DNA from: Allomyces arbusculus
Lineage: Eukaryota > Blastocladiomycota > Blastocladiomycetes > Blastocladiales > Blastocladiaceae
DNA length: 64,000 bases
Direction of reading: 5' to 3'
Assembly: GCA_027604705.1 (NCBI GenBank)
Contig: JADHYV010000072.1
Coordinates: 32,656 to 96,655, forward strand
Every line of letters starts with the position of its first letter. Positions within the stretch are counted from its first letter, which is position 1. A model generated the notes under the pieces. That model did no database searches, had not been told where the DNA came from, and was given only the letters and a program-made list of their open reading frames with translations. The position numbers were made by a program, and so were the translations under genes. This document shows, piece after piece, positions 31,617-61,200 of this stretch.

Positions 31617-32399
31617 TTACACGAGCAGGACCGAGTTGATGCACCCGTCGTTTTCCGGGTTGTTCGTCACCTGCGCGTACTTGCCCCACACGACTTTGCC
31701 ACCGGTCGTGACGAGTCCGAGTTCCGAGACGTTGACCTCGATGATCGTGCCCTTGGTGATGACGCCAAGCTGCGTGTAGAGCGGTGACGACGGGTTCTTC
31801 TTGACGCCAATCATAGGCAACGTGAATGTGGCGCCGAGTTCCGGGTGCGTGACATTGGCCTTCTTGAAACGCAACCCCATGGGCCGAATGAACCGCTCGT
31901 ACTTTGGCGGCTTGCGCGTGAACCCGTCGCCGACAAACGTGACCTTGGTGACCATGCGCTTCCACTGCTTGGTTTGCCGCTTGCCCGTCTTGAGCACCTT
32001 GAACATTTCGTCCTCGGCAATGCCGCGCACTTTCGGCAGCGGCACGTTCCACTTGCCGGCCTTTTCCTTGCGTTTTTGCTTGATCATGTTCGAGAGCACC
32101 TTGGCATTGTTCTGCGACGACCGATCGAGCAAGTAGGCGGGCACGGCGCCGGCCTGCGGTTCTTGCGGCGCCGTCGTCTTGGCGTTCTTCTCCTCGTGCG
32201 CCTTAATGGTCTTCTTCATTTCAATCTTCTCCGTGTGCCGCTTCTTGTTGTGCAGCTTGGCCTTGAGCCCGTGCAGCTTTTGCGCGGTCGCCGAGTTCTT
32301 GTGGACCGAACGCGCCTCGCGCTTGCGCATGCGCTCCTCGTGGTTGAACCGGCGGCCATAGCGCTTGATCGCTTCTTCAATATACTCGTTCTGAGGCAT
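31617..32399 (-). CDS. NSA2: NSA2 ribosome biogenesis factor, intronless
   Basis: The protein has 260 residues, starting [20 protein letters not shown] at 32399, nearly the family-standard length (261 in yeast). NSA2 is an S8e-like nucleolar factor of pre-60S particles needed for 27S pre-rRNA processing. Visible family features are the basic N-terminal half ([40 protein letters not shown]), the AYLLDR motif, [20 protein letters not shown] and the C-terminal S8e-like beta domain ([35 protein letters not shown]). Conservation makes the assignment secure. It diverges from the small complex I-like gene across 423 bases. Confidence 0.97.
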
Positions 32400-36191: not shown

Positions 36192-37804
36192 TCACGGCTT
36201 CCTCGGCTCACCGCCGCCTCCCTCCTTATCCTTGTCCTTGTCCTTCGGCTCTACCGGCGACTCCCCACGTTCCAGGTGCGCTGCGGCCATGACCTCCTTC
36301 GCCCACCCTTCCCACGCGACCTCCTCCTCCTCCTCCTTGACCGGCGACGGCGGTGAGCGGCGCGGGACCGTCCCCTTGGTCTTCACTTCTGGGGGTGCAA
36401 TCCCTCGCGACCCTCCCTCCGGCATCAACTTGAGCCCCGCCTGATCCTGTCCGGGCGCATATACGACCGTCCCATCCTCATCCTCGTCCTCCTCCCTTTC
36501 CATGGTCGGCGGCTGCACCAAGATCACGGGCGGCGGCGAGTCGCGCGACTTGCGCGCCAAATCGACCAACGCCGCGGGCGGAGGCGCTTTCGGTGGCGGC
36601 GGTGCATGGAAGACGGGTTTCCCCGGGGAGGGCGTCGGCATGCGCATGGCCGCCGGTACGACGGCGAGCCCCGTCGACGTATACAGGGTCCCGTTCTGCG
36701 GCGCCGAGTTGATACTCCCGTTGGGCGAGGCCGGACGCGGAACGTGTTGTGGTGGGTAAGGTGGCGATTGCGCGATCCCCGCGGGGAGGGCAGGGCCGGT
36801 GGGCCGTGGTTTCGGCGAGGTTGGGGAACCGACAGCGGAGCCGACGGCGGTCGTGCTGCCAAGATTGCTGCCGACGACCGACGCGCCGACGTTGCTCCCA
36901 ACTACGGAGGCGCCGCCAGCAATGGTCGTGGGCGAGACGAGGATCGTCGGCGAGCACGCCGACGCGAGCGACGTCGGTCGTGGTGACGCCGCGCTCGACG
37001 CGCCCGCGCCCGCGGTTGGCGGAGGCTGCGGCGGCCGCGTCTCGGACCCTGGTTTCGCCTGTAGTCCGAAATCCACTTTCCCGACGCCCGGCACGTTGAG
37101 CACGGTCACGTCTGGTTGTTTGGTGCGACTCGCGCGGAAGTGCCGCCACAGGACGTAGGCGAGCGCAGCAATTCCAGCGAGCCCGACGATCAGGACGTAG
37201 ATGCGCCAGGACGCGAGCGACCAAGGGGAGGGTGGGGCGTCGTCATGCGCGAGCGGTTTGGTGCCGGCGTTGGACGGCGGGTCCCAAGAGGTGCCAGGCA
37301 GGTCCATGCAGATGAGCGTGTTGGCGCAGTAGGTTTCGGTCGACTAGAGGGCGAGGTCTTGGGTGAGCGAATTTGGAGAGGGGGGAAGGAGTGAGGAAGA
37401 GCGTACAAAGTAGGTGCACGTATCGTTCTTGTTACAGTGCAGCGGCATGCATCCTTGGCGGACCACGTCGCAGTTGCCGGCTGTGATGCACGAACGCGGA
37501 AAAGTCATGGATGGTCATGAGCACAGAAAACGCGTCATGGGCGTACGGGCGAATTCGTCGTCGCCCAAAACACTGTTTGGTGCAACGTACACTCCGGGCA
37601 GTCGGCGTGGGTCTTGCACGGGAAGTTCATCTTGCTGGCGTCAGCTGCGAGCGCCGTGAGGGCCAGGGTGGTCACGGCGGCGGCGAGCACGAGGGCGAGC
37701 GTGCGTCCTCGGCGGCGACGTGCGTGTCGGCCGGATTGGCGGCGCCCGTCTTGGCCGCGTGTTGAGGAAGGCGCTGGTGTCATCGTTGCGTCGGTTGGGC
37801 TCAT
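36192..37804 (-). CDS. Type I membrane protein with a small Cys-rich ectodomain and Pro/Ser-rich cytosolic tail (3 exons)
   Basis: I do not recognise the family. Exons 37804-37591, 37480-37407 and 37343-36192 join in frame to 479 residues. The N-terminus has Arg-rich residues before a signal-anchor-like segment (TLALVLAAAVTTLALTALAA). A short ectodomain follows with about ten cysteines (FPCKTHADCPE, GNCDVVRQGCMPLHCNKNDT, STETYCANTLICMDL). A clear membrane segment (WRIYVLIVGLAGIAALAYVL) lies at about residues 118-140. The remaining 340 residues are Pro/Ser/Ala-rich with repeats (ASVVGSNVGASVVGSNLGS) and a final acidic/basic helix ending KDKDKDKEGGGGEPRKP. The plan suggests a surface receptor or cell-wall sensor, but this is inference from topology only. 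Confidence 0.7.
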
Positions 37805-38408
37805 GAATGGGCGCGGTTGCAGCAGCGGCCGTGTCGTCTATAGCCTAGCGCTGAGTCTATGGCGCGCTGGCGCAGGTCTAGCGGCTGGCCGTGCGTGCTC
37901 GCAGTCGCCTTGTCGGTCCAGAGCGCGGCAACGATGGGCGAGGGCGCGGCGGCAGGTCGAATGCGCCTCGACGGGTGGATTGCAGCAAGTCTTGCAGGCC
38001 GTGAGCAGCTCGTTTGTGGCAGGGCCCGTCGTCGTTGTCGTGAAGGCGGCCGGCCGTGGTCGCCAACAGCGCGTCGTCGTTGCCCGGACCGCCGCCGGCC
38101 TGGCACGGCTCACTTCTCGGCTGAAGGCGAAACTGGGCGCCGCCACAAGAAAGGAAAGGGGAAAGACGCATGACACGGGGCCGCGAGACACTTCGCTGCG
38201 CCATGCACGCGCAAACCACGTGCAGCACGCCCAGTCTGCGAGACGCTCTGCCGCAACCCATTTCGTGATCACCGCGCGAGCACCGCCGTCGTCATCGCCG
38301 TCGTTCTCGCGCTCGCACCGTCCACGAACCGCACACAACCGGCCGCAAAACGTCGCGGTTCCGCGCGCCGACCTTCTCCACCCGGCCACGCTGCCACCGA
38401 ACGCCGCC
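37805..38408. promoter_or_regulatory. Divergent region between the Cys-rich membrane protein and RPP14-like genes
   Basis: These 604 bases include the promoters of both genes. Frames on either strand are low-complexity. No TATA box is evident. Confidence 0.4.
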
Positions 38409-38877
38409 ATGGCTCTCGCCGTCTCCGTCAACGCCGCGACCCTGGGCACCTACCTGAACATCAAGCTGTACCTCTCCTGCGCTACCATCCCGTCCCGCTT
38501 GTATTCCTCCCACCCACCTGACCAAATTCTGCGGCAAACCAGATCACGCCCGCTCGAACTGCTCGAGCTGCGCCAGCTAATCCACGCCGCCGCCACCGAC
38601 TCGCTCGGCGTCCTCGGCGGGGCCGTCACCGTTGACATTCTCAAGTTTCGCGGCGACGCCGCCGTGTTGAGGATACCTCGCGAGTATTTACTGCACTTTC
38701 TATGTTTTGCTGTGTGATGTGCAAATCTGACCTCTCACTCCATATAGCCACGCGCAACAGGTCTGGGCCGCACTCTCCATGGTCACATCCTTCCAGGACA
38801 AACCTATCAAAATCGTCGCCACTGCGCGCGATGCGCTCTTGCTCGGTCTGACCGCCACTGAGCCCATCCAAGTCTGA
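38409..38877 (+). CDS. RPP14-like RNase P/MRP protein subunit (2 or 3 exons)
   Basis: The gene starts at ATG 38409 in GCCGCCATGG context. The last intron is 38684-38747. An additional 75-base GT...AG segment (38468-38542) is in frame and free of stops; removing it gives 109 residues, keeping it 134. The removed version aligns better with RPP14: LRQLIHAAATDSLGVLGGAV, TVDILKFRGDAAVLRIP, VWAALSMVTSFQDKPIKIVA and a Leu-rich end (DALLLGLTATEPIQV). RPP14/POP5-type proteins are small RRM-like subunits of RNase P and RNase MRP, which mature tRNA 5' ends and rRNA. The gene ends only 50 bases from the convergent coiled-coil gene. Confidence 0.65.
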
Positions 38878-42741: not shown

Positions 42742-44849
42742 ATGGACCGCCACCACCAACCCACCAAGACGGCAGCGCCGGCTGCAAGAACGCCTGCCGA
42801 CTCGGCGCATTCGCCCATGTCCGCCCGTCTCGCCCTGACCACCGCCGAATCGCGCCTCTTCTCGCTGCTCAACGACGTCTGCAAGACCGCGCCCAAACCA
42901 GTCGTCTGCCGCGTCGCTGGCGGCTGGGTGCGCGACAAGCTGCTCGGCCACCAATCCGACGACCTCGACATTGCGCTCGACTCGTACATGGGCTTTGACT
43001 TTGCCTCGCTCGTCGCCCAACACTTGAACGACCCCAAGCGGCAGCAGCAATGGCAGTCGATTCTCGACAGCGAACACACCATGGACCGCGCGCACCCGGA
43101 CCGCACGGCCCAACCATTCGCTGGACTCGCCAAGATCCTCGCCAACCCGGACAAGTCCAAGCACTTGGAAACGGCCACCGCGCGCGTGCTCGGCATGGAC
43201 GTCGACTTTGTTAACTTGCGGTCGGAAACCTACCACGCGCACTCGCGCATTCCGGCAACCATTGCATTCGGCACCCCGAAAGACGACGCTCTCCGGCGCG
43301 ACTGCACGATCAACGCTCTCTTCTACAACATTTCCACGTCGACCGTCGAAGATTTCACGGATCGTGGCCTGACCGACCTCGCACACGGCATCATTCGCAC
43401 CCCGCTCGACCCAAAAGCCACGTTCCACGACGACCCACTGCGCGTGCTCCGCGCCGTTCGGTTCGCTGCACGGCTCGGGTTCACGCTGGCCCCCGACCTG
43501 CAAGCCGCCGCAAACGACCCGGACTTGCACGACGCCCTAGCCAACAAGATCTCGAAAGAACGCATCGGCACGGAACTGCATAAAATGCTCGCCGGTCCCG
43601 GTCCGGCCCATGCGGTTGCGATGCTGCACCATCTCGGTGTCTTGCCGACAATCTCGCTCGCACACGTCACCGATGCCATTCTCGTCCGTGATGCAGTCAC
43701 GCACGCCCCGATCGAGCATCTGCACGTCGATTTGGCCGACGCGCCGCGCGCCGTGACCCTCTTGCACTGGCTTGCGTCGGCAAGTCGCAGCGGGTCGATC
43801 TTGCGGCACGTGCCGCCGCACGATTATACTGTCTTGCGCGCGTACCCACGGCTCACCGCGCTCACGGTCCCGACGGCCGCGTTCCTCGCGACCGTCACTC
43901 TCCCGTTTTACGGGACGCAGTACCGCGTGCCCAATCCGTCGCTCGAAGCCGCCAAGGACGCCATCGCCTCCAAAAAGGCTAAACGCGGTGGTGCTGCCGC
44001 GGCCGCGGCCGCAGCCGCACTGGCGGCGCCGCAATGGCACGCGCTCGCGCACCATGTCGTCCGCAGTAATTTCAAGCAAACGAACCACGATGCCGAGTGG
44101 GTCGCGCACGCGCATGCCGTCCTGGCGGCCGTGCAGAAATTGGTGGCAAAGGAGAAGGTGGATGTGGAGGCGGTGTTGGCGGCGACGGGCGCCGATCCGC
44201 GACGGATGAGTGCGGTGGTGGCCGATGTGGCCGTCGTGGAAAGGGCGGTGGTGCTGGAGAGGTTGGCGCTCGGCCGGCTCGTGCGGTTCCTGGCCGCGCG
44301 AAACGTCGGGGAGACGTGGGCGGCGGTCATGGCCGTGGCCTGCGTGCACGAGTTGGTGGGGAAGGGGGTGCCGCTGGTGAAGCACGACGCCAAGTCGCTC
44401 GCGCTCGTGGTGCAGGGGGACAAGGTGGCCGATGACAAGGCACACGCGGTGCTCAAGCGGTACCATGCGTTGCTCGACCGGGTGTACGCGCTGCAGTTGG
44501 AACGCGCGTGGGCGGTCAAGCCGATTTTGAACGTATGTTCCCGTGGGACTCCCGACTTGTAATTCCCTACGCTCACTCTATCTCGGACCTTGACTAGGGC
44601 AACGACCTCCTGAAACTGCTCAACCTGCCCAAGGGACCGCTCGTCAAGGACGCGCTCGACTGGGTCGGTGACTGGCAACTCGCGTTCCCGCAAGGGAACG
44701 CCGACACGTGCCGCGCCTGGCTCGAACGGAGATACCTCCCGCCGGGCGAGGCGTCGGCGTGTAAGCGCGAACCGAGTTCGGATCCGCCCGCGGCCGTGGG
44801 GAAGCCGCTGAAGAAAGTGCGCAGTGCTGATGCGCCGGCGGCGAGCTAG
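42742..44849 (+). CDS. CCA1: tRNA nucleotidyltransferase (CCA-adding enzyme), 2 exons
   Basis: Exons 42742-44532 and 44598-44849 give 680 residues from the first Met. A second in-frame Met (42817, MSARLALTTAESRLF) would give 655. This class II enzyme adds CCA to tRNA 3' ends without a template. Catalytic motif A shows GGWVRDKLLG and DDLDIAL with the metal-binding Asp pair. Then follow VDFVNLRSETY, RRDCTINALFYN, VEDFTDRGLTDL (the B/C region), FHDDPLRVLRAVRFAARLGF and the ERIGTELHKML nucleotide-recognition end. The extra N-terminal segment before Met26 could be a mitochondrial leader, as in yeast CCA1, where alternative starts serve different compartments. The C-terminal half is long and helical, with an Ala run. 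Confidence 0.95.
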
Positions 44850-45725
44850 TATCTTCCAGGTTGAGGGATGGGCGTGGGGTTGAAATGTAGGTAGTTAATA
44901 ATTCTATTGCGACAGCGCGGTGCAGTCGGTCCTGGGGGGGGGGGGTGTGGGGGCCGCACCGATTGACAAACAGGCCAACAAACAAACCGGCGGTGTAGCA
45001 GGTTGTAGGAGGGACAAAAAGCGCCTTGGAGCNNNNNNNNNNCGCGGCGCGGCTGGGCGCGTCTGCTCCCCCCCTCGCCCCCCACCCGCCCCGCCGCGCC
45101 CGCGGCGCGGCCGCCCGCGCGCCCCCCCCCCCCCCCCCCCCCCCCGTCCTCGCTTGCTCATCACGGCAAGAATCAGCACGCGCTGTTGCCGTTGATGAGA
45201 GATGACAAGAAAGTGCGTTCGAGATGCCCAGTACAAAGACACGCCGTTCGCCCCCTACTCGCCTGGGCGTTGGCAGGCAGCGTGCAGAAAATGGCAGACA
45301 CCAACATGCACATGCATGCGCGTGCGTCGTCGGCGTTGCCACCCAGAACAGATCGGGAATGCGGGTGGATGCACAAGTTCCCAGCGTCCAGGCGGCGAAC
45401 CACGGCGCGCGCTCTCTCTCTCCTCAGGCGCACGACGCGTCGACACACCAACCCGTCCCTCATTGAAAGTTTCTCGCGCACACCACCGACCCTTCTGGAT
45501 CCCGTACTCCCCCAATATCACTTTCTGAGCCCACGCACAGCAGCCACGGTCACGACACTCGACGGCGTTCTCGACGCCAACGACCTTGACCGACCAGTGT
45601 GAATCAGTGCCCGCTGGTGGCGATAACCCAGCACAACCTCGCCAGACGCAACTGCCTACGCTTCCACATCCCCAGAAAACGCGCTCGCGCCGTGTTCATT
45701 CTCCACCACCGCGCGCGACCAGACC
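44850..45725. other. Gene-free region with an assembly gap
   Basis: It contains a 12-base G run (44934-44945), ten N (45033-45042) and a 24-base C run (45122-45145), and then mixed sequence up to the first small membrane-protein gene. The gap is clearly a sequencing or assembly break in extreme GC DNA. I see no gene. Confidence 0.6.
45033..45042. other. Assembly gap, 10 N
   Basis: Ten ambiguous bases lie between a G-rich and a C-rich homopolymer tract. The true missing length is unknown, so distances across this point are unreliable. Confidence 0.95.
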
Positions 45726-46091
45726 ATGCCGCCCTTCCCCATCCCACTCGACGCGTCGCCATCCGTGCCCGACCAACAGCGGCTCACGCAAGCGTCCTAC
45801 GACGGCTCCTCGTCCTGGACCGTGCCCGTCATCGCGACTGTTGGCGGGCTTCTAATCTTATGGGCTTTGGTGCAGCATTGCTCCGAAATGTGCGCCAGCT
45901 GCAACGAGCCAAGGAAAACGAATCCGACGACGCCGAGAGCAAGGTCCGTGTCGGTGGACGGCGACGCGGCGGCGGATGCGTGTGGGTGGTTTTGTGGGTG
46001 TGTTTGTGGTGACGGCGGCGACAGCGGTGGAGATGGCGGTGGTGGAGATGGCGGTGGTGGAGATGGCGGTGGTGGAGATGGCGGTGGGTGA
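45726..46091 (+). CDS. Small single-membrane-span protein with GGGGD-repeat tail, family member A
   Basis: An intronless ORF of 121 residues. The plan is a short Pro-rich N-terminus (MPPFPIPLDASPSVPDQQR), one membrane segment (WTVPVIATVGGLLILWALVQ), a Cys-containing stretch (HCSEMCASCNEP), a basic Ser/Thr patch, a second Cys cluster (ACGWFCGCVCGD) and a tail of GGDGGGGDGGGGDGG type. The ATG lies in ACCATGCCGCCCTTCC, identical to member C. The tail is encoded by a 15-base tandem repeat that continues past the stop. No known family is recognised. The N-terminus is likely outside or luminal and the Gly tail on the other side, but orientation is not certain. Confidence 0.6.
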   Translation: MPPFPIPLDASPSVPDQQRLTQASYDGSSSWTVPVIATVGGLLILWALVQHCSEMCASCNEPRKTNPTTPRARSVSVDGDAAADACGWFCGCVCGDGGDSGGDGGGGDGGGGDGGGGDGGG

Positions 46092-46125
46092 GGCGGTGGT
46101 GGAGATGGCGGTGGGGCGTGATAGG
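46016..46125. repeat. 15-base tandem repeat (GGTGGTGGAGATGGC)n encoding GGGGD
   Basis: About six units in the 3' end of member A, from 46029 on. The last units lie beyond the TGA stop that arises where one unit is shortened (GGCGGTGGGTGAGGC). Related, less regular repeats encode the tails of members B and D. Confidence 0.85.
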
Positions 46126-47381
46126 AACCATTCGTGAATGGATATATCCAACGCAATGCAGAGACTTGTGATCACAACGACATGTTGAGCGCGACGCGGC
46201 TTACAAGCGGCCCAGCATGTAGCGAGTTGCGCCGTTTTGATATAGACTTGATGCTGCCACGGACTCGCATTTGGCACGCACGGCGCGGCGATCCGGTTTC
46301 GGTCGTTTTGCACATCACAACGTTCCCGCACCCACTATGCCAGGCGCGTCGGTAGTCATGTCGACGCCCACGCGCCCCTGCCCGGGCCGAGCAAACGACT
46401 AGGCCGGCCGGCCGGTACAGAATGCGACCAAAATCACCTTGCTTTTCGGCACGTTTCAGTTCAAGGATCTGAGCCGTGTCATGTTCGTCCTCTCCACCCG
46501 GTATTGGACCATAAGGGCGTCCAGATCCTGCGTTGGCCGGTGGCCATAACTGACGGCGGCATGGACAGGCAGCTCATCATCATTCTGCACGCGCCACCTA
46601 ACCGAACTGACGGTCGTGCTGCGTCCCTGCGCCCAATGTATCGTGCAGGCTGCAGCTGGGTGCAGGCCGCACGCGGACCTGCGTCCATGTGCATTCCGCG
46701 GCGCCCGCGTCGCCAGCAGTCTCTCTCTCCGTTATTCTCGAAACATCCATGGGCGTCCCACATGTTCCGCCCGAGACGGCCACCACATGAAAACCGAAAG
46801 CGATGCAGTCTGCAGCTTGTTTCCAGAAATAACATGCACCTGCTTGCGTGCCTGCATCGATCCAGGCAGCTGGGCAAAAACAGACGCAAGCGCTCGCCCA
46901 TCGGCACGTTTCTTATCCACGACGGACGCGCGCCCACGGAACGATCGACTCGGCCTGTGCTGCAGCCAGAACGCACGCGTGCCGTGCATGGCGACAGGGC
47001 CGGCAAGGTCGCCAACCGCTCGCATGCCGCCAACCGACCGAAGGGCGCACAGCTCTTGATAAAGCCGCGCGCGCCCATCCGCGACCGCGATCCTCTCACA
47101 CCTCACGCATCGTCTTCTCAGCCAGCCCGTCAAAGCACCGGCCAGCGTGGCCGGATCCCGTCCCCTTGGACCCCACTCCACGACCCGCTGGTATCACGGC
47201 ATTTCAGCTTGGCCACGATCGTTCACGCTCGTGACACGAGCAAGTTCAAGCAGCCCTCGCATTCAAGGCGAACATTAGTAGTCCATTAACGTCGCTGTGG
47301 ACACGAATCTCGCGCGAATCCAAGTGAATATTTATCAGTGCATCTCCATCAAGCCTTCCAAGTGCCCAGTCGTACGCGACC
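46092..47381. other. Gene-poor spacer between members A and B
   Basis: 1.29 kb of lower-GC, mixed DNA. A plus-strand frame at 46504-47289 has no domain, membrane segment or splice logic that I trust. An AT-rich AATATTTATCAG block at 47325-47336 sits 46-57 bases before member B and may be its TATA region. Confidence 0.45.
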
Positions 47382-47834
47382 ATGCCAATCCCAACCCCGA
47401 CGCCCACAATCGACCTTTCGCGGATTGTGCATGCGTCGTCATTCGATGATCCGTTTGGCCCGCCGTCGTGGTTCGTTCCCGCTGTGATCGCGTTCATCGT
47501 CGTGTCCTTTGTGTGCACATGCCTTGCGGGCCTGCAGCGGAGTTGTGGTAACGGCGAGAACCGTGCGGGCAGAACGACCAATCGCAGAATGTCGTCTTCG
47601 GGGATCGATGGCGCGACCGTGGTTGAGATGGGTGGGGATGCAGGTGGTGGCGGTGGCGGAGGCAATAGTGGCGGCGATTCGGGTGGTGGGTGGTTTAGCG
47701 GATGGGGTGGTGGCGGCGGTGGGGATACGGGTGGTGGGTGGTCAGGCGGAGATACGGGCGGATTTAGCGGTGGCGGCGGGTGCGATACGAGCGGCGGGAC
47801 GGGCACGAGCGGCGGTGGGGGTGGTGGAGATTAG
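47382..47834 (+). CDS. Small single-membrane-span protein with Gly/Asp-rich tail, family member B
   Basis: An intronless ORF of 150 residues. The N-terminus is Pro/Thr-rich (MPIPTPTPTIDLSRIVHASS), followed by a membrane segment (WFVPAVIAFIVVSFVCTCLA), a Cys/basic stretch (GLQRSCGNGENRAGRTTNRR), and a 75-residue tail of Gly with Asp, Ser, Trp and Thr (GGNSGGDSGGGWFSGWGGGG; GGDTGGGWSGGDTGGFSGG). The membrane segment starts W-x-V-P as in member A. It is the longest of the four. The Trp-containing Gly repeats could self-associate (inference). It has a plausible upstream AT-rich box. Confidence 0.6.
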   Translation: MPIPTPTPTIDLSRIVHASSFDDPFGPPSWFVPAVIAFIVVSFVCTCLAGLQRSCGNGENRAGRTTNRRMSSSGIDGATVVEMGGDAGGGGGGGNSGGDSGGGWFSGWGGGGGGDTGGGWSGGDTGGFSGGGGCDTSGGTGTSGGGGGGD

Positions 47835-50759
47835 GAGTTGCGCGGCAAGCTGGTGTCCGAGTTGGATACTGGCGTAGAAGTGTCACCGCGCTCCATTGGT
47901 CATCAGCGCGCAATGGATCAAGGCCGGCACATGAAGTATTAGCACGCATCAGCGAAGTGCGCGGCTGACAGAATTGGTCACCATTGTGGCCGATCTGTCA
48001 TGTAAATATAATTATCTCTTTCCTTCTCGTCCACCTTGCTTTGTGTGTTCAGATGATCGTCTGCAAGTCCGACCGCAATTCTCCCAATCAATACGCCCGT
48101 GCCGCGCACATCTCCTCCACCCGCTAAAAGTGCCGCACCATCACGGCAGTCCTACACTCGCTCACCAAACCTGGTTATCCGGAAGTGTTGCCACACTGCG
48201 ACGCTCCACCTTTCCAAGCCGGGCGGCCGCGGATTACATCCATTTAAACATGTCACCTCCAGCCAAGAAGCTGGTCAAACAGACACGCCTTCTTCACCCA
48301 GTATCGGACACAACGGCCGCTTAGACACGGCCGCTTTGAAGTTGGATTGACCGCACCAGCAATATTGCCAGCACTTGCATCATTCTTGTCGTGTTGCAGT
48401 CGCGCGTGGCAGTGGCAACAGAGTCGCCGCAAGCGGTTCCGACTTCGGACGACGTTGAAATTTTTGGCGAGACGCAGCACAAGGCATTCTTCGTGTCACT
48501 TAGGACCGTAAATGGCCAGAACCGTTTGGACATGGCCGTGCTTTGTTGCACACGTTGAGGGGCATGGCTGACAAGGTGCAATGACCGCCACGGCCATTAC
48601 TTCCGCCGCCATGGAGCCCGTCTCGGTCATGGCACAACGCAGCAATATTGGCTCGTGCAAGTCGAGGGTGGTAAGCGCAGATCGATGCACGTTGTGACAC
48701 ATGGAGCCGTCCAGTGGCAGTAGCACGCCTCAACCCACCTCCCACGACAAATATTGCCAAGAGACCTTTTACTAGTGACGGAGACAGTAATTTGGATGGT
48801 GAGAGCCCAGCACGGGAGGTTTCAGGCTAGCCAGTTGCCCGGGTTGATGTGTCAAGGCTCAACATGGCCCTCACACGACATTCAGCCGAAACGGAGGGCC
48901 CAGCTCTGGTCACTGAGACTCTGAATATGAAGAAACCATGAAACCGTAAATGTGTAACGTGGAAGGACCAACATGAGACGCCAGCATGGCAACTTGTGCA
49001 CCACCTTGACCCTAATCCCAGTCCAGCACACTTCCTGGCGACTGGAAAAGTGGGAAATGATACTGAAATAACTAAGACTTGATGGCTGAACTGGCACGAC
49101 AAGCAGCGGATGGAGGGATTATCGGAAGTTTGGATCTGCAAGTCAACCTGGTGAGAGCGTGCCATTCACGGCATAAATCGCCACGGTGCCATTTTTACCG
49201 TTGTTGCTCGAGGAAATTTGGTACTGGGCGCACCGCAAAGCTTTGTTATAAGCTGTAAAATCTCCCTGCCCTATCGTCTGTTGATGTCAATGAATGTGAC
49301 GACGACCCTTTCTCATGTTGTTCTGCTGCAGGCAAATCAGTCTGACACAGAGGTCGCTGGCGGAATCAGCCAGCAACCAAATACCGGGCGGAAGGGGTGT
49401 CTCACGATTTCAATTGTTAACGGCAAGACGAGAAGGCAGGAGCCTGTGACGTACGCATGCACCCCGTTTTGCGGTCAGATCGGACCTGCTGAAGACAGGT
49501 GCGGACAGGTATGGATCTGAGCCAAGGCGCGTTGCTGAATTGAGTCCTGCAAGATATCATCAAATTTTCACCACCAGGTTTCGCCACCGGTTATGCGCAT
49601 ATTAGGCACGCTGGGTTTCGTCGGGTAGAATTGCATGGCCATAGCGTGGAGGAGACTCTTCGGCCGCGTGCTTGGGACAATTCAGGTGCTGCGAGCTGCA
49701 AGTGCTCACAAATGGATGTCGAACTGCGTCTGGAACCGACCAGCTCCGAGCTGACCTCCATTTTTCGGGGTCTTGCGAGCACCCGAGCGAGTTGAACGCT
49801 CACACTCGAAGGTTCTGATTAGGACTGCTGCTTGCCTGGGCATGCTCACTCCAGCTCTTGGGCGATACCAGCCCGTTTATGCCTTCGCTCGTGGAGACTT
49901 GTGACCATCATCGTTAGTTTGTTATTGCCGTCGTAGAGCGAGAGGAGGAGGAGCGTCTTTGTCGTCGTGTAATCTGACCCCTGGCGGTCCTATTTCGATC
50001 ACGCCGCTTGCTCGCGTAGAACACGCGCAAATGGTCCCCGACCGTGACACGGCTAGCTCTCGTCTTGATCAAACCATGAGCAGTCGAACCGCGTGTCCTT
50101 ACGGCGGGCCCCGCATCGAGCAGCGCAGACACCCACGGGCTGGCCCAAACCTCTGCGCCAATGTTCGCTTCCATGGGCGCGCTGCAACGCATAATTTGGC
50201 GTTGACTATTCCTTTCAAAGCATCCGTCGATAAAATTTAAGTAGCATTTTCCTTGCTGGGCGCACGCGCGAGGAGAACGCGTAAAGACGCCACCCGACTT
50301 GGTGCCGAGATGAACGGAAACGAAAGTCATGTTCGTACTTATGCACGCTCTCGCCAAAGTCGTCGTAACCCCAACTTCTGCCAAACGAGTCCCCACTGTC
50401 CTCACTCCTCTCCCTCCGCGTCCACCTTCACTTGACCTCGCGCAACACGCCTGTCGCGTCATCACCTTTCCCACCCTCGCTGCTCGCATAGACATTCCGC
50501 AGCGCGTTCGCGCACGTCTTGTCGACCTGTTTACCACGCGCCACGGACGTCATTACCACACGCTTCCACGGCGTGCATCTGCGCGTCCACACGCGACAGT
50601 TGACGACGTGCCGCTTGAGCCGCTCTGGATCTCTCATCCAGCACGTTGATCCGACTGCACCCGCACGTGCTGCATCCGCGCGCCCAACCAAACGGTTCAA
50701 GCGCCGTCCGACGCGCCCATTCGCTGCCACCACCACGATAGCGCGCACACACCCGGACC
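47835..50759. other. Gene-poor spacer between members B and C
   Basis: About 2.9 kb of lower-GC DNA in which I find no convincing gene. All frames are short and lack domains. A segment near 48134-48240 matches the upstream DNA of member D and is listed separately. A possible AT-rich box (AAAATTTAAGTAGC) is at 50231-50244, about 520 bases before member C. Confidence 0.45.
48134..48262. pseudogene. Relic of the upstream region (perhaps start) of a GGGGD-family gene
   Basis: GCACCATCACGGCAGTCCT, then CTCGCTCACCAAACC and GCGACGCTCCACCTTTCCAAGC, correspond in order and spacing to GCACCGGCACGGCAGTCCT, CTCGCTCCACAAACC and GCGTCGCTCCATTTTCCCAAGC at 52003-52084, upstream of member D. Downstream, at 48250, is an ATG (MSPPAKKL) but no membrane segment or Gly tail follows, so the coding part is lost or never existed. 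Confidence 0.45.
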
Positions 50760-51026
50760 ATGCCGCCCTTCCCAAGCCCGCAGCTCGACGCGCCGACACC
50801 CACACCCACGCCCGGCGCAGAACCCGAGTCACCGGAGATTAACCGGGCCTCCTTCTTTTTATCGCTTGTACCGGCCATAGCCACGATTGGCGGTGTCGTA
50901 ATTCTGTGGTCGTTCTTTTGGCTGCATGAACTGTACACCAGCATCCGCGGGACGACGACGCGCAAGGAAGATGCGTCAGAGGGAGCAGCAACAGCGCCAA
51001 GCGCGACGCCGGCCGCGAGCAAGTAA
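50760..51026 (+). CDS. Small single-membrane-span protein, family member C (no Gly tail)
   Basis: An intronless ORF of 88 residues: MPPFPSPQLDAPTPTPTPGA, then a membrane segment (VPAIATIGGVVILWSFFWLH) closely similar to that of member A (VPVIATVGGLLILWALVQ). The C-terminus is short and charged (RGTTTRKEDASEGAATAPSA) and lacks the Cys clusters and GGGGD tail. The start context ACCATGCCGCCCTTCCC is the same as in member A. It is a clear paralogue by N-terminus and membrane segment and shows that the tail is not essential to the family or has been lost here. Confidence 0.55.
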   Translation: MPPFPSPQLDAPTPTPTPGAEPESPEINRASFFLSLVPAIATIGGVVILWSFFWLHELYTSIRGTTTRKEDASEGAATAPSATPAASK

Positions 51027-52302
51027 AGCAGATAAGGTGGTGGCGTAGCCGGGGAGTCGTGCACCCATGCCCGAGAGTGGAGGAATGGTGGAAGGTCAGG
51101 TGGTGATGAAGATGCTGGCGGCGCTTGTTCATTAGTAGATGTTCATAGCTGAAACATAGAAACAAAGCCTGTTGTGTTAAGCGACGGCCGCCGTCCTTGA
51201 TCTGGACCTACTTGAGTTAAGACGCATGTTCCTGGCGCATACCAATGTGCGTAAGCTGTGCGCTACCAGATGGTGACCGTTGCTTCGTGCGCATCCCACG
51301 TTCCTCCTGCCATAATTGATATCCATAATCCTGACACTTCACGACAAAGTGCCCAGGCCATCGGCACGACTTCTCCACCCGGTTGTTGGCCGCTGATCAC
51401 GTCTCGGTATTTGCCGCAGCCTTGCACGCACGGCCGTTGTAGGGCGCGCGAGCACTTCACGCCGACCCCCATGCGTGCAGCTGCATTTCACGGGGGCCGT
51501 GTCCCTCCTTCATCATGGGTCAAAATTGTTGCGGTTGTAAGAGCACCGCAGCTCAATAGTTCAAAGCCCACCTGTTCATCTCTCGAAACTTCTAAGGATG
51601 CATGGCCGACAAACGTACGTGTTGCTCCCAACGGCGGCGCCGCGCAAAATCTCCACATGAAAACTGGCGCTTTTTGAATGCAATCTGCTGAAGGTCGCGT
51701 CCGGATCGAAATAACATCCGCCTGGTGCTGCATGTGCTTGCAGCTTTGATGGTAAACAGGCAGCGAGTCGGAAACAGCCACACGTTCGCCACCGTCAGGT
51801 TTCATTCTCGTCCCAAGTGCGTGCCAGTGTCGACGTTGTCGGTTCAGCGTTTCAGCAGGACGAAGCTCCACATGCGTGACAGGGGCCAGCTATGGATGGT
51901 ACTTAATAAAGACACCCACCCACCCATGGTCGCGCTCCTGCCGCACTTGCGCATCAGACGCGCATTTTCACTACCCTTTCACCGTGCTGCACCGGCACCG
52001 TGCTGCACCGGCACGGCAGTCCTTTGCTCGCTCCACAAACCCAGTGATACGACGCCTCGACGCGTCGCTCCATTTTCCCAAGCTGCCGGGCCGACGATTC
52101 GCTAAGCTTCCGAGCAGCATCGCGGAACACAAGGAAGCCACTTCATTCAAGTTTCACCTCGCTCCGCAAGAACGGCGCGCAGTCGGCGACACGTCTCCGT
52201 TCGACTCCCTAAACCCGCTCGTGCAGTAGCATCAAGAGCGACCCGTCACCACTCGCCGGTCACTCGCAATCCACCACCCCGCGTGTTCACGCACGCGAAA
52301 CG
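51027..52302. other. Gene-poor spacer between members C and D
   Basis: 1.28 kb without a convincing gene. A TATA-like CTTAATAAAGAC lies at 51902-51913. A short direct repeat CCGTGCTGCACCGGCA occurs twice at 51980-52012, inside the segment homologous to the relic at 48.1 kb. Confidence 0.45.
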
Positions 52303-52638
52303 ATGTCAACCGTTCCATCCGCAACGCCAACACCAACACTCGACACGTCGCTGCTCGTGGAAACGTCGTGGGGCCCGTCCAGCGCAAGAAAATGGATCGC
52401 CATCATCGGTGTTATTTGGGGGGTCGTTATTTTGGTTGCGTGCTGCCAGGAAGCAGGCGCTTGCGGACCGAAGCGCAATGCAGGAGATGATGACACGAAC
52501 CTGCGTGGAGTGGTGTCTGTTGGTGCTGACGTGGCGCACGCCGTCGTCGATTTGGGCGGTGGTGGAGACGGCGGGGGTGGGGACGGCGGGGGTGGAGATG
52601 GTGGGGGCGGTGATGGCGGTGGTGGCGGCGGCGATTAG
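52303..52638 (+). CDS. Small single-membrane-span protein with GGGGD tail, family member D
   Basis: An intronless ORF of 111 residues: N-terminus MSTVPSATPTPTLDTSLLVE, then SSARKW and a membrane segment (IAIIGVIWGVVILVACCQEA), a Cys/basic patch (CGPKRNAGDDDTN) and a tail of GGGGDGGGGDGGGGDGGGGD type ending at TAG 52636-52638. Organisation is as in member A. The tail repeat is coded by imperfect 15-base units with mixed Gly codons (GGG, GGT, GGC), so it is maintained as protein rather than being only a fresh microsatellite. It lies 440 bases before RAB11. Confidence 0.6.
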   Translation: MSTVPSATPTPTLDTSLLVETSWGPSSARKWIAIIGVIWGVVILVACCQEAGACGPKRNAGDDDTNLRGVVSVGADVAHAVVDLGGGGDGGGGDGGGGDGGGGDGGGGGGD

Positions 52639-53075
52639 GAGGGTGTCGTTGCGGTCTGTCTCATAAGCCAAAGGAGGGCAGGCAAGTACTTAGCTCAATC
52701 AGAGAGTTGATCGGCCACGTTTTACTGGAATGGACAGGCACTGCTATGCACACTCGCGAGTGCATTCGGTCGACCCGATCCGCGTCCGCCATCGTCGTCG
52801 TCAACATGACACGCTGGGCCGGCAACCGGGAAATAAGCAGCAGACGCGTCCCGGGCCAGGCACGTGTCCTTGCGGCATGGTCCCTGCCCACAAAACGGAG
52901 CTCCAAAAAGGCACACGCGCGCAGCTGCCTGCCTGCGCGCACTCCAAGGGCGCCCGCGCACGCACACACCTCCGCGCTCACGTCGGCGCCGCTCTCCATC
53001 CGCATCCCTCCACCGCGCGCCGCGAATTCGGCCCGCTCCTCTTCCAGCACAGCACCACCACTCGCTGCACTCGCC
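52639..53075. promoter_or_regulatory. Upstream region of RAB11
   Basis: 437 bases between member D and the RAB11 start codon. They change from lower-GC DNA to GC-rich DNA at about 52850. No TATA box or extra gene is seen. Confidence 0.4.
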
Positions 53076-53914
53076 ATGTCCAAGGACGACGAATACGATT
53101 TCCTGTTCAAGGGTAAGCAAGCTGCACGCACCGCGCGCGCGCGCCATCGGCCGTGGTGACCGGCCGGCATCCATTTCCTGGCGCTCCTCGGCCCGGTTTC
53201 CCCCACTAACGCGCGTGTGCCCCCTTGCACTGCCACTAGTCGTGCTGATCGGCGATTCGGGCGTCGGCAAGTCGAACCTGCTGTCGCGGTTCACGCGCAA
53301 CGAGTTCAACCTCGAGTCCAAGTCGACGATTGGCGTTGAGTTTGCCACGCGCTCCATCCAGGTCGACGGCAAGACGATCAAGGCGCAGATCTGGGATACG
53401 GTACGTGACGTGCCATACCGGATTCTTTACTGTGTGAGACTTGACTAACCCTTACGATCCGGTTTCGCAGGCGGGACAGGAGCGGTACCGCGCGATCACG
53501 TCGGCCTACTACCGCGGCGCCGTCGGTGCGCTGCTCGTCTACGATATTGCCAAGCACGTCACCTACGAGAACGTGAATCGGTGGCTGAAGGAGCTGCGCG
53601 ACCATGCTGACAACAACATTGTCATCATGCTCGTCGGGAACAAGTCGGATCTGCGCCATTTGCGTGCCGTGCCTACCGACGAGGCCAAGCAGTTTGCCGA
53701 GGACAATGGCCTCAGTTTCATTGAGACGTCGGCGCTCGACGCGAGCAACGTTGAGCTGGCGTTCCAGCGCATTCTCACCGAAATCTACAAGATTGTGTCG
53801 AAGCGCGCGCTCGAGGAGAACGCGGCCAACATTGCCCCGACCAAGGGCGACACAATCAACATTACGCCGACGCCCGGCGGCGACGACGCCAAGGCCGCGG
53901 GCAAGTGCTGCTAA
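53076..53914 (+). CDS. RAB11-family GTPase (Ypt31/32 type), 3 exons
   Basis: Exons 53076-53112, 53240-53400 and 53471-53914 give 213 residues. All Ras-like GTP-binding motifs are seen: P-loop GDSGVGKSN, switch [13 protein letters not shown], the G3 motif WDTAGQE split by intron 2 (WDT|AGQE), GNKSD and ETSALD. The start [20 protein letters not shown] and [20 protein letters not shown] are almost invariant in Rab11. The C-terminus ends AAGKCC, the double-Cys signal for geranylgeranylation. The protein controls exit from the trans-Golgi and recycling endosomes. Intron 1 lies just before the P-loop. It sits next to ArfGAP1, another trafficking gene, on the same strand. Confidence 0.97.
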
Positions 53915-54516
53915 GCGTGTGTCTCGTCGTCGTTTTTCTGATTCTGTTTGATTGCTTGCTCTTAACTTTGTTGTCGCCGTCGTCGTCTTTTTCTTCTTGG
54001 CTCCACACGAACGCTGATCCGGGTCGGGTCTGCCTGCCTCCATTCATTGTGCGCGCGCGTGCGATTCCTTGCCGGCGCGGCGTGGTGGGTGGGTGGAAGC
54101 GCGCGCGGTCCTGGCGGCCGCGCCGTTTGTATCTTTCTCTTCCGGCGCCTGTCTCATCCCCGTCCCGGTTGACTTTGCAGTACAATTCGTTCTTGGTTGA
54201 TCTTGGTCGTCGTCGTTGTGTTCTTGCGCGGTCTGAAGGTCAGGTTCGCCACTATTCGCCACGCTTGCCACGGTCACGAGACGTTCGTTCGTGTCGAGAT
54301 GGTCTCTTCGCTTTTGCTCCAGATACCGACGACGCTGGCAACGTTTCCATATTATTCGCTTCCCCTGCACCCTCTTCTCGCCGAACCGGCTGCAACCGCT
54401 CCAATCAATATCCTGTGGCATTGGACCGAGCAGCACACGAACTGAACCAGCTCGAGCACACTCCGACCACCGCCACCAACCGACCCGTCCTGCCGCGTCA
54501 TCCGGCAGCAACCACC
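53915..54516. promoter_or_regulatory. Intergenic region RAB11 / ArfGAP1
   Basis: The 602 bases begin with T-rich DNA (TCGTTTTTCTGATTCTGTTTG near 53931), a plausible RAB11 3' end, and end with the ACCACCATG of the ArfGAP gene. No gene is seen. Confidence 0.45.
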
Positions 54517-58251: not shown

Positions 58252-61200
58252 ATGGCGGGGTTCCTCGCGCAAGTCGCAGCGTTGCTGCGCAAGAACGCCC
58301 TCATTCTGCAGCGATCGCCGTTCCAACTCGCCCTGGCGGTCCTGTCGCCGCTCGTTTTCTTGCTCGTCGCGGCCCTGGCATCCACGGCGCTCTCGTCGAG
58401 TTTTTCCGCTGCGGGTGCGACTACCGACACGTCGCATCCGGCCGCCGTCTCGCTCACCTTCCCCAAATGCACGAACGCGCTGGGTCGGTGCCGCCCGCGG
58501 CTCTTGTACGCGCCCAACGACGTCTACCATGCGCGGATCATGCATGCGGTCGCCGACGGCATGGGGCTGTCGTCGAGTTCGACCGACGACGTGCGTCCGT
58601 TTGCGACGCTCGACGAGCTCGCACAGTACCTGCTCGAACAGCAGATCAAGTTGACGAGCGACCGCGACTTCAACTTTGGGATTGGGTTCACGACGTTTTT
58701 CGGCGCCGATGCGCCCAGGAGCCTGGATGAGGCGGGTGCGCTGGTCGAGCGCGTCAATGGGACGCACTACTCGATTCTGACGGTCCAAAGCAGCGGGTTC
58801 TTTTCGTCGGGCCGCGACATGTTCTTGCCGGGGGTCGCGACCGCGTCGCCCCCGCTGTTTTTAAAAACGCAGCTGGACCGCGCGATTATCCAGACGGTTC
58901 GCGTGGATTGCCCTTATTTTGACCGCCGACTGCCGAGGTATTGACATTCACTCTCTTTTTTCTCGCTCTAGCGCAGCGAAATGAAGGGCAAGTCGGCACC
59001 GTCGCTGGACATCAAGGTGTCGGGCTGGCCGACGCCTGAGAACGTGGATTTGTGGGACTACTCGGCCGCCCGCTCCGAAGACGGCAGCAAGCAGAATGCC
59101 AACGAAAAGGCGTCGACGCGCATGGGCAACGCGTTCACGGCCGCGTTTCTGTTCTTTGGGTACTGCCCGATGTTCCTCATCGTCATGTCCATGGTCGGCA
59201 GCGAGAGTACGTTTCTCCGCCTTGTGCGTTGATTTGTATTTACCGCAATTCACTGATCTACTTTATACGTTCTTCTCCATTAGAGTACATGGGCCTCCTG
59301 ACTGTCCTCCGGAAGCTGGGCATGTCCGAGGCCGCGTACTGGGTCGCCAGTTTTGTCACCCTCGTTCTGCTCGTCATCCTCTCGGCACTCTTGTCGATGC
59401 TTGCAATTCCGGCATACCCGGCCACGTTCCCGCTCTCCAACGCGTCGGCGGCCATCACCCTTGTCGTCCAGTTTGCCGCGGGCCTCCAGATCGTATCGTT
59501 TGGTCTCGTCCTTGTCGCTGGGCTCACGCAGCAGTACGCCGTCAACGCTCTCGCAGGTCTGCTGCTCATGGCGTCGATCCTGTGCTCGGGACTCCTCGGG
59601 TTTCTCGACTCGGTCTCGGGCGCCGGAATCATGCCCAAGGCGCCCTCGGGTTTTTTCGTCGGGTTCAGCTCGGCCCCGGCGCTCGGGTGGATTCTCGAGT
59701 TTTTGTTCCCGGTGCTCGCGCACGGCAAGCTCGTGTTTGACGTGAGCTCGGCGGTCCCGCTCAAGAACGAGACGCTGACCTGGACGCACGCGCGGCTCAC
59801 AACAGCGCGCACGTACGTCAGCGACAAGGTTGAATTTGCGGCGTCCACGACGATCGACACGGTGCTGCTCATGTGTCTCGTGCCGCTCGTGTACGTGGCC
59901 GTCGCGTGGTACCTGGCGCAGGTCGTGGGTGGAGCGCAGCGGCTGTGGGACCCGTTTGTTCCGTCGATTTTCCAGCGGCGCGTCGAGGAGAGTTTCCGGT
60001 TCCACGCCCAAGCCAAGGACAATGAGGAGCTGGTCGTCGAGAATTTACGTGTCACGTACGATGCAAGGCTGTTGAGATGCCGCAGCCGGAAATTGCACGA
60101 GGCCGTCAAAGGCGTCTCGTTTGCGGTGCGTCGCGGCCAGGTGCTGTCGCTACTGGGCACCAATGGAGCCGGTAAGAGTCTCGTTGTTTTATGGCCCTCG
60201 CGGGTTGTTTCCGTGACTGATCGGCGCATTTTCGGCTCGCTAGGCAAGTCGACCGTCATCAACGCGATCACGGGCCAGCTACGCCCCACGTCGGGCCGCG
60301 TGTCGTGCTTTGGGACCGGCCACATGGGAACGATCCAGAAACGCATCGGCGTCACGGCACAGCACGACTACACGTGGCCGGCGCTGACGGCCGCCGAGCA
60401 CATTGCGCTGTTCGCCTCGTTCCGCGGCATTCCGGCGACCGAAGAGTACATTCTCGACCGGCTCCAACAGGTTGGGCTCGAGGATAGTACCGACCTGCCC
60501 GTACGCGCGTTTTCGGGTGGGATGCGTCGCCGGCTGTGCATTGTCCTGGCGTCGGTCGGGCGGCCGCCGGTGTGCATTCTCGACGAGCCCACGAGCTCGC
60601 TCGACCCGATCAACCGCCGCAAGGTCTGGAAGTTTGTTCAGTCGCTCAAGGAGCACGCGGCCGTGATCTTGACGACGCATTTGCTCGACGAGGCCGATGC
60701 GCTCGGGGACTCGATTTGCATCATGAAAGACGGCGAGGTGAAAGGTGCTTTTCCCCTGACCATGCTCGTTTTTCAGGTGGTCATGATCTTGACTTGTTTC
60801 TCCACCCTGTTTGATAGCTGCCGGCACGTCGCTTGAACTCAAGGCGCGCCACGGGTCCGGGTACGAGGTGCACCTGCTTTTGCACGAGCACGCGAATGTT
60901 GACGACGCCAAGGCCATTATTACCGGTCTCGCGCCGGGCGCAGTTATTTCGCAGCGGTCTAAGGACATGCTGGCCGTCACGGTACCCACCACAACGCAAT
61001 CGGCCGGATCCGCGGTCGTGCCGTTGCTCCAGTACCTGCAGTCGGACGACGCGTCGCGCGTTGCGCTCATTGCCGAGTTCAACGTGCAGAATACGTCGCT
61101 CGAGCAAGTGTTTCTCAATGTCGCCGGATACGGCACCGCGGGCGCCGAAATGACGCTGGGTGACGAGACGACCGCTCAGGCAACTGAGTCCGACGTGGGC

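Follow-up and report, generated by a model that had tools for sequence, protein, structure and literature searches.

A probable lineage-restricted family of small single-span membrane proteins in Allomyces

Introduction

Small membrane proteins restricted to a single lineage are common in general, and two described systems offer points of comparison for those considered here. The Ca2+-binding repeat of RTX proteins is a tandem nonapeptide, GGxGxDxUx, in which U is a hydrophobic residue. Proteins with a cysteine-rich transmembrane module (CYSTM) are tail-anchored, and yeast members have been implicated in manganese stress, according to PMC10217909.

Here, we analyse four open reading frames (ORFs), A to D, in a 64-kb stretch of DNA from Allomyces arbusculus (the whole of which is termed the window). 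They very probably constitute one coding paralogue family of the Allomyces lineage (Blastocladiomycota), with a history of two-gene-unit duplication and a single-span architecture; this assessment covers family, coding status, history and single-span architecture, and excludes mechanism. The literature searched, mainly open-access and including the available parts of PMC11878562 and PMC10217909, contains no description of this family.

Gly/Asp-rich repeats are common to RTX proteins and the tails of this family. Unlike RTX repeats, however, the tails of A and D are built from a DGGGG pentad that has no hydrophobic U position. The complete motif GGxGxDx[LIVFYW] is absent from all six proteins compared (A–D and two apparent orthologues, AMAG_18846 and GGF32_006250), and the DGGGG repeat itself contains no GGxGxD; the bare GGxGxD motif occurs three times in B, once each in D and AMAG_18846, and not in A, C or GGF32_006250. 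GGxGxD-type Ca2+ binding, as raised in the preliminary description, is therefore not supported. The resemblance to CYSTM proteins, which PMC10217909 presents as small, cysteine-rich eukaryotic membrane proteins, is one of mode of working only: those proteins are tail-anchored, whereas in A–D and the two orthologues the helix begins at residue 30–31 and 39–101 residues follow it. A tail-anchored Cys-rich helix was thus not found, C and GGF32_006250 have no cysteine at all, and CYSTM in Pfam was matched neither by A–D (E ≤ 1) nor by the orthologues (E ≤ 0.1).

No credible match for the family emerged from Pfam, NCBIfam or PDB. The following were judged to be chance matches: YxzE for B (E 0.0083; 17.6 bits, where the cut-off is 40); PsbL, both for GGF32_006250 in Pfam (E 0.056) and for one of six members in NCBIfam (E 0.11); and, in PDB, 10 rows of HLA/MHC class I chains (E 0.071 to 0.23).

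Organisation of the locus

The four ORFs lie on the + strand, with the coordinates and lengths originally reported, and are of two types. Gene A (45726–46091, +, 121 amino acids) and gene C (50760–51026, +, 88 amino acids) are of the MPPFP type, with predicted transmembrane (TM) segments at residues 31–49 (45816–45872 and 50850–50906, respectively); A carries a DGGGG tail and C has no tail. Gene B (47382–47834, +, 150 amino acids) and gene D (52303–52638, +, 111 amino acids) are of the PTPTPT[IL]D type, again with predicted TM segments at residues 31–49 (47472–47528 and 52393–52449), and end in an irregular Gly-rich tail and a DGGGG tail, respectively. Membrane-proximal cysteines are present in A, B and D, with three in A within 15 residues after the TM segment; C has none. 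The term intronless, as applied to A–D, is an ORF-level reading of genomic DNA. The near-identical membrane segments and common start context of A and C are as first quoted, and ACCATGCCGCCCTTCC has two occurrences across the 25.9-Mb assembly, each of them inside the A–D cluster (reversed control, 0).

No Pfam match was obtained at E ≤ 0.1 for seven other ORFs tested between 45195 and 53357, consistent with the gene-poor surroundings noted before. The cluster is flanked by genes for a CCA-adding enzyme and a Ras-family GTPase. No Rfam family reached its threshold anywhere in the window.

Paralogy and duplication history

After removal of the Gly-rich tails, the cores of A and C align with a score of 92 (shuffle maximum 53), as do those of B and D (shuffle maximum 55), and 0 of 1000 shuffles reach the score in either case. 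A–B scores 60 (0/1000 shuffles) and A–D 57 (1/1000). On these comparisons the cores of A–D appear homologous, clearly so for A–C and B–D and weakly for A–B and A–D. Direct similarity is non-significant for C–D and B–C (50/1000 and 58/1000 shuffles), so that the unity of the family rests on A bridging both types. In a phylogenetic tree, A, C and GGF32_006250 are set apart from B, D and AMAG_18846 with support 90/90; D pairs with AMAG_18846 against B at a support below 80, a node drawn open, and the branch leading to B is long.

The DNA between A and B (46486–47372) is homologous to, and collinear with, the C–D intergenic DNA (51367–52255; neither feature has an assigned strand), with a score of 396 against a shuffle maximum of 245 (0/300 shuffles), which indicates that a two-gene unit was duplicated. 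Identity extends to 536 of 815 aligned columns with no common codon register. A hidden gene was not found within this homology, where the columns per register number 244, 290 and 281 and the best six-frame match covers 13 residues (E 0.005).

An extra copy of the block upstream of D (51985–52269) lies downstream of B at 48113–48418, also without assigned strand (initial match E 1.15e-8; score 235, shuffle maximum 212, 0/150), and is possibly the remnant of a third unit. Because of this block, a gene was sought between B and C (47835–50759), and queries with A, B and D gave nothing better than E 1.1. Comparison of the A–B interval with B–C was non-significant (37/150 shuffles), which makes a plain third copy of the A–B/C–D unit less likely. 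An origin of the D-upstream DNA as a dispersed repeat was set aside, as a genome search with 51960–52300 at E ≤ 1 returned only the self-match; since it also missed the diverged copy at 48113–48418, diverged dispersed copies of the D-upstream DNA may exist.

Orthologues and coding status

A protein profile search among 556 candidates (predicted proteins of limited length range sharing exact five-residue words) returned three matches at E ≤ 1, of which two are Allomyces proteins and the third is C from the window. AMAG_18846 of Allomyces macrogynus (ATCC 38327; profile E 7.8e-22) is the apparent orthologue of D, with 89% identity in the alignment, 109 against 111 amino acids, and a GGGGD tail like that of D. 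GGF32_006250 of Allomyces javanicus (E 1.1e-9) is the apparent orthologue of C; both have 88 amino acids, 21 of 23 residues in the helix region are identical, and the orthologue likewise lacks a tail and cysteine. Both also match their counterparts in helix position, are annotated merely as hypothetical proteins, and are not mentioned by name in the mainly open-access literature searched. Given the tree support below 80, the orthology of D rests on sequence identity. For A and B, the protein database yielded no orthologue.

Within this predicted-protein search, homologues were thus detectable in one lineage only, that is, in this genome, A. macrogynus and A. javanicus, in agreement with the lineage-specific family originally proposed. 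No further members were found elsewhere in the genome by searches of limited sensitivity: query A listed C and not B or D, and query B listed D and not A or C, so that diverged members elsewhere could be missed. Five off-cluster matches (L004, L008, L011, L012, L015; E 0.009–0.33) were rejected after realignment, which for L012 spanned query residues 2–30 only. The stretches concerned are rich in Pro, Cys, Arg or Ser and have no comparable hydrophobic helix, and two of the five contain an internal stop.

As expected of coding sequences by the preliminary description, homologous ORFs are conserved in relatives (AMAG_18846 for D, GGF32_006250 for C) and substitutions favour synonymous sites, for A/C with pS 0.61 and pN 0.28 (Fisher p = 0.001) and more weakly for B/D (p = 0.05). 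DNA-only alignments place 170 of 232 positions of A/C (mismatches by codon position 16, 14, 19, a weak third-position excess) and 170 of 214 of B/D (19, 13, 24) in codon register; with register this weak, the pS/pN result relies on alignment guided by the proteins. The suggestion that the family is fast-evolving holds for the paralogues, which have diverged, but not for D and AMAG_18846, given their overall identity and the identity of their tails.

Membrane segment and topology

In each of A–D, the 19-residue stretch of highest hydrophobicity begins at residue 31. Among 143 ATG-initiated ORFs of 80–160 amino acids in the window, six have their best hydrophobic 19-mer (Kyte-Doolittle mean ≥ 2.0) starting at residues 26–36, and these include A–D, all four at residue 31. 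By Kyte-Doolittle hydrophobicity, each of the six family proteins has exactly one hydrophobic helix, starting at residue 30–31, with a best 19-mer mean of 2.05–2.61; the next-best 19-mer is ≤ 1.13, and no candidate for a second membrane helix was found among the 19-mers of any of the six.

Net charge before and after the helix is –1/0 in A, –2/+2 in B and –2/0 in C, which favours a predicted cytosolic C-terminus for these three, weakly so for A and C. The opposite bias of D (+1/–2) and AMAG_18846 (+1/–1) favours a C-terminus outside, and GGF32_006250 has no charge bias around its helix. The structure model of D is poor overall (pLDDT 53.7, pTM 0.22); a helix at residues 25–50 spans the best-scoring blocks, with a mean pLDDT of 81 for residues 31–40 and 74 for 41–50, and blocks from residue 91 on score 46–51. 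When this low-confidence model was used for a fold search, nothing matched at E ≤ 10.

Glycine-rich tails

A Gly/Asp tail had been ascribed to three of the four genes. This stands for A and D, with their DGGGG tails, and for the lack of a tail in C; the tail of B is present but irregular, being longer than those of A and D and composed of Gly, Ser, Thr, Trp and Asp. In six-frame translation of the window, tandem runs of two or more DGGGG units are confined to the tails of A and D.

The tail of A is encoded by a 15-bp tandem repeat (46026–46114, +) with three identical full units. The stop codon (46089–46091) sits within this array, and beyond it the same frame reads GGGGDGGGA until the next stop. 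The tail of D (52555–52635, +) has four DGGGG units that differ at third codon positions only (third positions vary at 5 of 5, first and second at 0 of 10; p 0.004), and is identical to that of AMAG_18846 at 26 of 26 positions, against 70 of 82 elsewhere. Downstream of C, its frame continued past stop codons (51036–51152, +) might, speculatively, hold the remnant of a lost Gly/Asp tail. An intron linking C to the downstream Gly-rich stretch was judged by eye and dropped because the orthologue of C stops at the matching residue.

Possible functions

Very probably, an ancestral gene duplicated to give the MPPFP type (A, C) and the PTPTPT[IL]D type (B, D), and the resulting two-gene unit then duplicated in tandem to give A–B and C–D. 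Each product comprises about 30 Pro/Thr/Ser-rich residues followed by one predicted helix, to which A, B and D add membrane-proximal cysteines and a putatively disordered tail that is rich in Gly and carries acidic residues. Tentatively, we infer as the most likely mechanism a membrane anchor, with its N-terminus out, its tail cytosolic and its cysteines S-acylated, that holds the tail at a membrane, where it would serve as a flexible acidic spacer or a scaffold of low affinity. C would be a tail-less variant or partner lacking the tail module; as it has neither cysteine nor tail, the function cannot centre on either.

It is also conceivable, if doubtful, that only the N-terminus and helix are conserved and that the Gly/Asp tails have no function, having arisen as neutral products of a minisatellite. 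The identical units of A, the stop codon inside its array and the tail-less state of C and its orthologue fit such an origin, but the confinement of differences among the D units to third codon positions and the complete tail identity with AMAG_18846 argue against it.

Rather unlikely, in our view, is an N-in, C-out signal anchor that places the tail outside the cell, where it would form a flexible surface or adhesive layer and possibly bind Ca2+. The charges of D and AMAG_18846 agree with this orientation, the bare GGxGxD motifs of B, D and AMAG_18846 lend something to Ca2+ binding, and the Asp of each pentad could weakly bind cations; yet A, B and C are biased the opposite way, no RTX-like motif is complete, and a tail is missing from both C and its orthologue. 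An adhesive or matrix role, as originally envisaged, requires the tail to be outside and, with charge biases so divided, is not supported.

A more specific proposal, and an improbable one, is an invention of the Allomyces lineage in which a membrane-anchored, disordered brush of DGGGG pentads acts with a tail-less paralogue, derived from the same duplicated two-gene unit, in organising a membrane specific to these zoosporic fungi; in at least one member, selection would maintain the exact repeat and not its composition alone. That the ORFs are chance frames in G+C-rich DNA, or non-coding duplicates, could be suspected from the 34 ORFs of at least 70 amino acids, many overlapping one another, that overlap 44500–54000 and from the seven tested without Pfam match, but is very improbable and already largely refuted by the apparent orthologues of near-equal length and high identity in two other species, and by conservation at the protein level between paralogues.

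Conclusions

The A–D family is a genuine and new, yet fairly ordinary, lineage-restricted family. In a branch of the fungi that has received little study, it provides a gene family with good support whose local history is resolved: a two-gene unit was duplicated, and one member has no tail. It offers specific candidates for a membrane role confined to fungi of the Allomyces type, and may provide a clean case in which selection acts on amino-acid pattern within a glycine repeat.

Four small membrane-protein genes with a shared layout

The four plus-strand ORFs A (45726–46091; 121 residues), B (47382–47834; 150), C (50760–51026; 88) and D (52303–52638; 111) are present in the window at the positions first claimed for them. 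Hydropathy gives one hydrophobic segment per protein, and the top-scoring 19-residue membrane window starts at residue 31 in all four. Membrane-type segments starting at residues 26–36 are found in only six of the window's 143 ORFs of 80–160 amino acids, four of the six being A–D. The start context reported as common to A and C does indeed occur in two copies in the 25.9-Mb assembly, both within the cluster (reversed control: 0 occurrences). Gly/Asp tails are present in A, B, D and AMAG_18846, a hypothetical protein of A. macrogynus, with tandem DGGGG units confined, within the window, to A and D. Each of these four proteins has three cysteines inside the segment or at most 15 residues past it; C and GGF32_006250, a hypothetical protein of A. 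javanicus, have none.

Two plus-strand ORFs flank the cluster and could serve as synteny anchors: one (42742–44562) carries the head domain of poly(A) polymerases and CCA-adding enzymes (PF01743, E = 1.1e-23), the other (53627–53914) the final portion of a GTPase of the Ras family (PF00071, E = 2.5e-14). Other plus-strand features are a 390-aa ORF matching Tmemb_185A (12756–13928; PF10269, E = 7.9e-14), a 304-aa ORF matching the RNase P/MRP subunit Pop8 at residues 245–294 only (37803–38717; PF20976, E = 6.6e-8) and adjoining ORFs (59289–63249) in which ABC transporter ATPase and ABC2 membrane domains are recognised; a ribosomal protein S8e ORF lies on the minus strand (31617–32399; PF01201, E = 3.4e-42). 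Upstream of A, undetermined bases within 44904–45161 mark a small assembly gap; a minus-strand ORF there contains four X, and the whole window holds 10 N.

Paralogues and apparent orthologues

Cores, from which the Gly-rich tails had been cut off, were compared pairwise against 1000 shuffles. No shuffle reached A–C (score 92; shuffle maximum 53), B–D (92; maximum 55) or A–B (60), and one reached A–D (57); C–D and B–C were not significant on their own (50/1000 and 58/1000). A profile of the four cores, searched against 5.77 billion proteins (556 candidates), gave three matches at E ≤ 1: AMAG_18846 (E = 7.8e-22), C itself and GGF32_006250 (E = 1.1e-9). AMAG_18846 is an apparent orthologue of D, with identities of 24/29 in the N-terminus, 16/20 in the helix, 30/33 after it and 26/26 in the tail. 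C likewise has an apparent orthologue in GGF32_006250 (identities of 21/28, 21/23, 19/33 and 1/3 in these four residue ranges), which stops at the residue matching the end of C, so the missing tail of C is not a local truncation. Separate protein-database searches with A and with B found no matches; their orthologues therefore either do not exist, lack annotation or have diverged too far.

In the tree, {A, C, GGF32_006250} and {B, D, AMAG_18846} fall on opposite sides of a split supported at 90/90, and C groups with GGF32_006250 (95/93). B forms a long branch, and the grouping of D with AMAG_18846 to its exclusion, with tree support <80, is based on their 89% identity. By inference, the host sits within or close to Allomyces. 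Besides the cluster itself, genome searches with each core returned a few weak matches elsewhere, rejected as members because they are without the helix. The search with A missed B and D, and that with B missed A and C, so diverged paralogues may exist elsewhere.

Duplication history

Since A resembles C and B resembles D, the gene order A B C D suggests that a two-gene unit was duplicated, in which case the A–B and C–D intergenic DNA is expected to be homologous. When tested, these intervals scored 396 (shuffle mean 158, maximum 245; 0/300), and the collinear homology, from 46486–47372 to 51367–52255, stops just short of the B and D start codons. The alignment (536/815 columns identical, 74 gapped blocks) has no codon register in common, and the homologous DNA therefore looks non-coding. 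An earlier comparison by 500-base pieces had seen part of this match (z 5.4 among 77 pairs).

Among ten interval pairs compared against shuffles, two were reached by none, A–B/C–D and D-upstream/B-downstream, and two more, both against DNA downstream of D, by 1/300. The block upstream of D (51985–52269) has a diverged second copy downstream of B (48113–48418; 0/150), after which no family ORF is seen. This copy may be the trace of a lost third gene unit, against which counts the lack of a match between the A–B and B–C intervals (37/150). A genome search with 51960–52300 returned only itself, missing the known copy.

Substitution pattern and tail repeats

Substitutions favour synonymous sites, more weakly for B and D than for A and C. 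In protein-guided codons, A and C differ at 22.0 of 35.8 synonymous and 27.0 of 96.2 nonsynonymous sites (pS 0.61, pN 0.28; Fisher on rounded counts, p = 0.001), and codons differ at 13 of the 24 residues identical between them; for B and D, pS is 0.58 and pN 0.43 (p = 0.05). The DNA-only control was weaker than the protein-guided alignment: 170/232 aligned positions were in codon register for A/C (16 mismatches at first, 14 at second and 19 at third codon positions) and 170/214 for B/D (19, 13 and 24). In the four DGGGG units of D, third positions vary at 5/5 and first and second at 0/10 (p = 0.004); with unit differences so confined, the repeat looks constrained as a peptide. The three units of A are identical, hence uninformative on codon positions, and look freshly homogenised; this array contains the stop codon.

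Topology, relatives and novelty

The Ca2+-binding analogy once proposed for the tails failed a motif test. The Pfam, NCBIfam and PDB libraries gave no credible family match, and the AlphaFold model, confident in the helix only, found no structural match by fold comparison. Over the 15 residues on either side of the segment, net charge (before/after) is −1/0 in A, −2/+2 in B, −2/0 in C, +1/−2 in D, +1/−1 in AMAG_18846 and −1/−1 in GGF32_006250; the bias points differently among members and gives no single topology for the whole family. The arrangement favoured from A, B and C is a rather doubtful one, in which the N-terminus would lie outside the cell and the tail would be cytosolic and acylated.

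CYSTM proteins bear some resemblance, being small with a cysteine at the helix, but membership is ruled out since A–D lack a CYSTM profile match and their helix is not C-terminal. The nearest true relatives are the two hypothetical Allomyces proteins, and a literature search yielded no description of the family among the matches listed. Small membrane proteins restricted to one lineage are already familiar; A–D add a well-supported new case, with a tidy history of duplication and a repeat that may be under selection.
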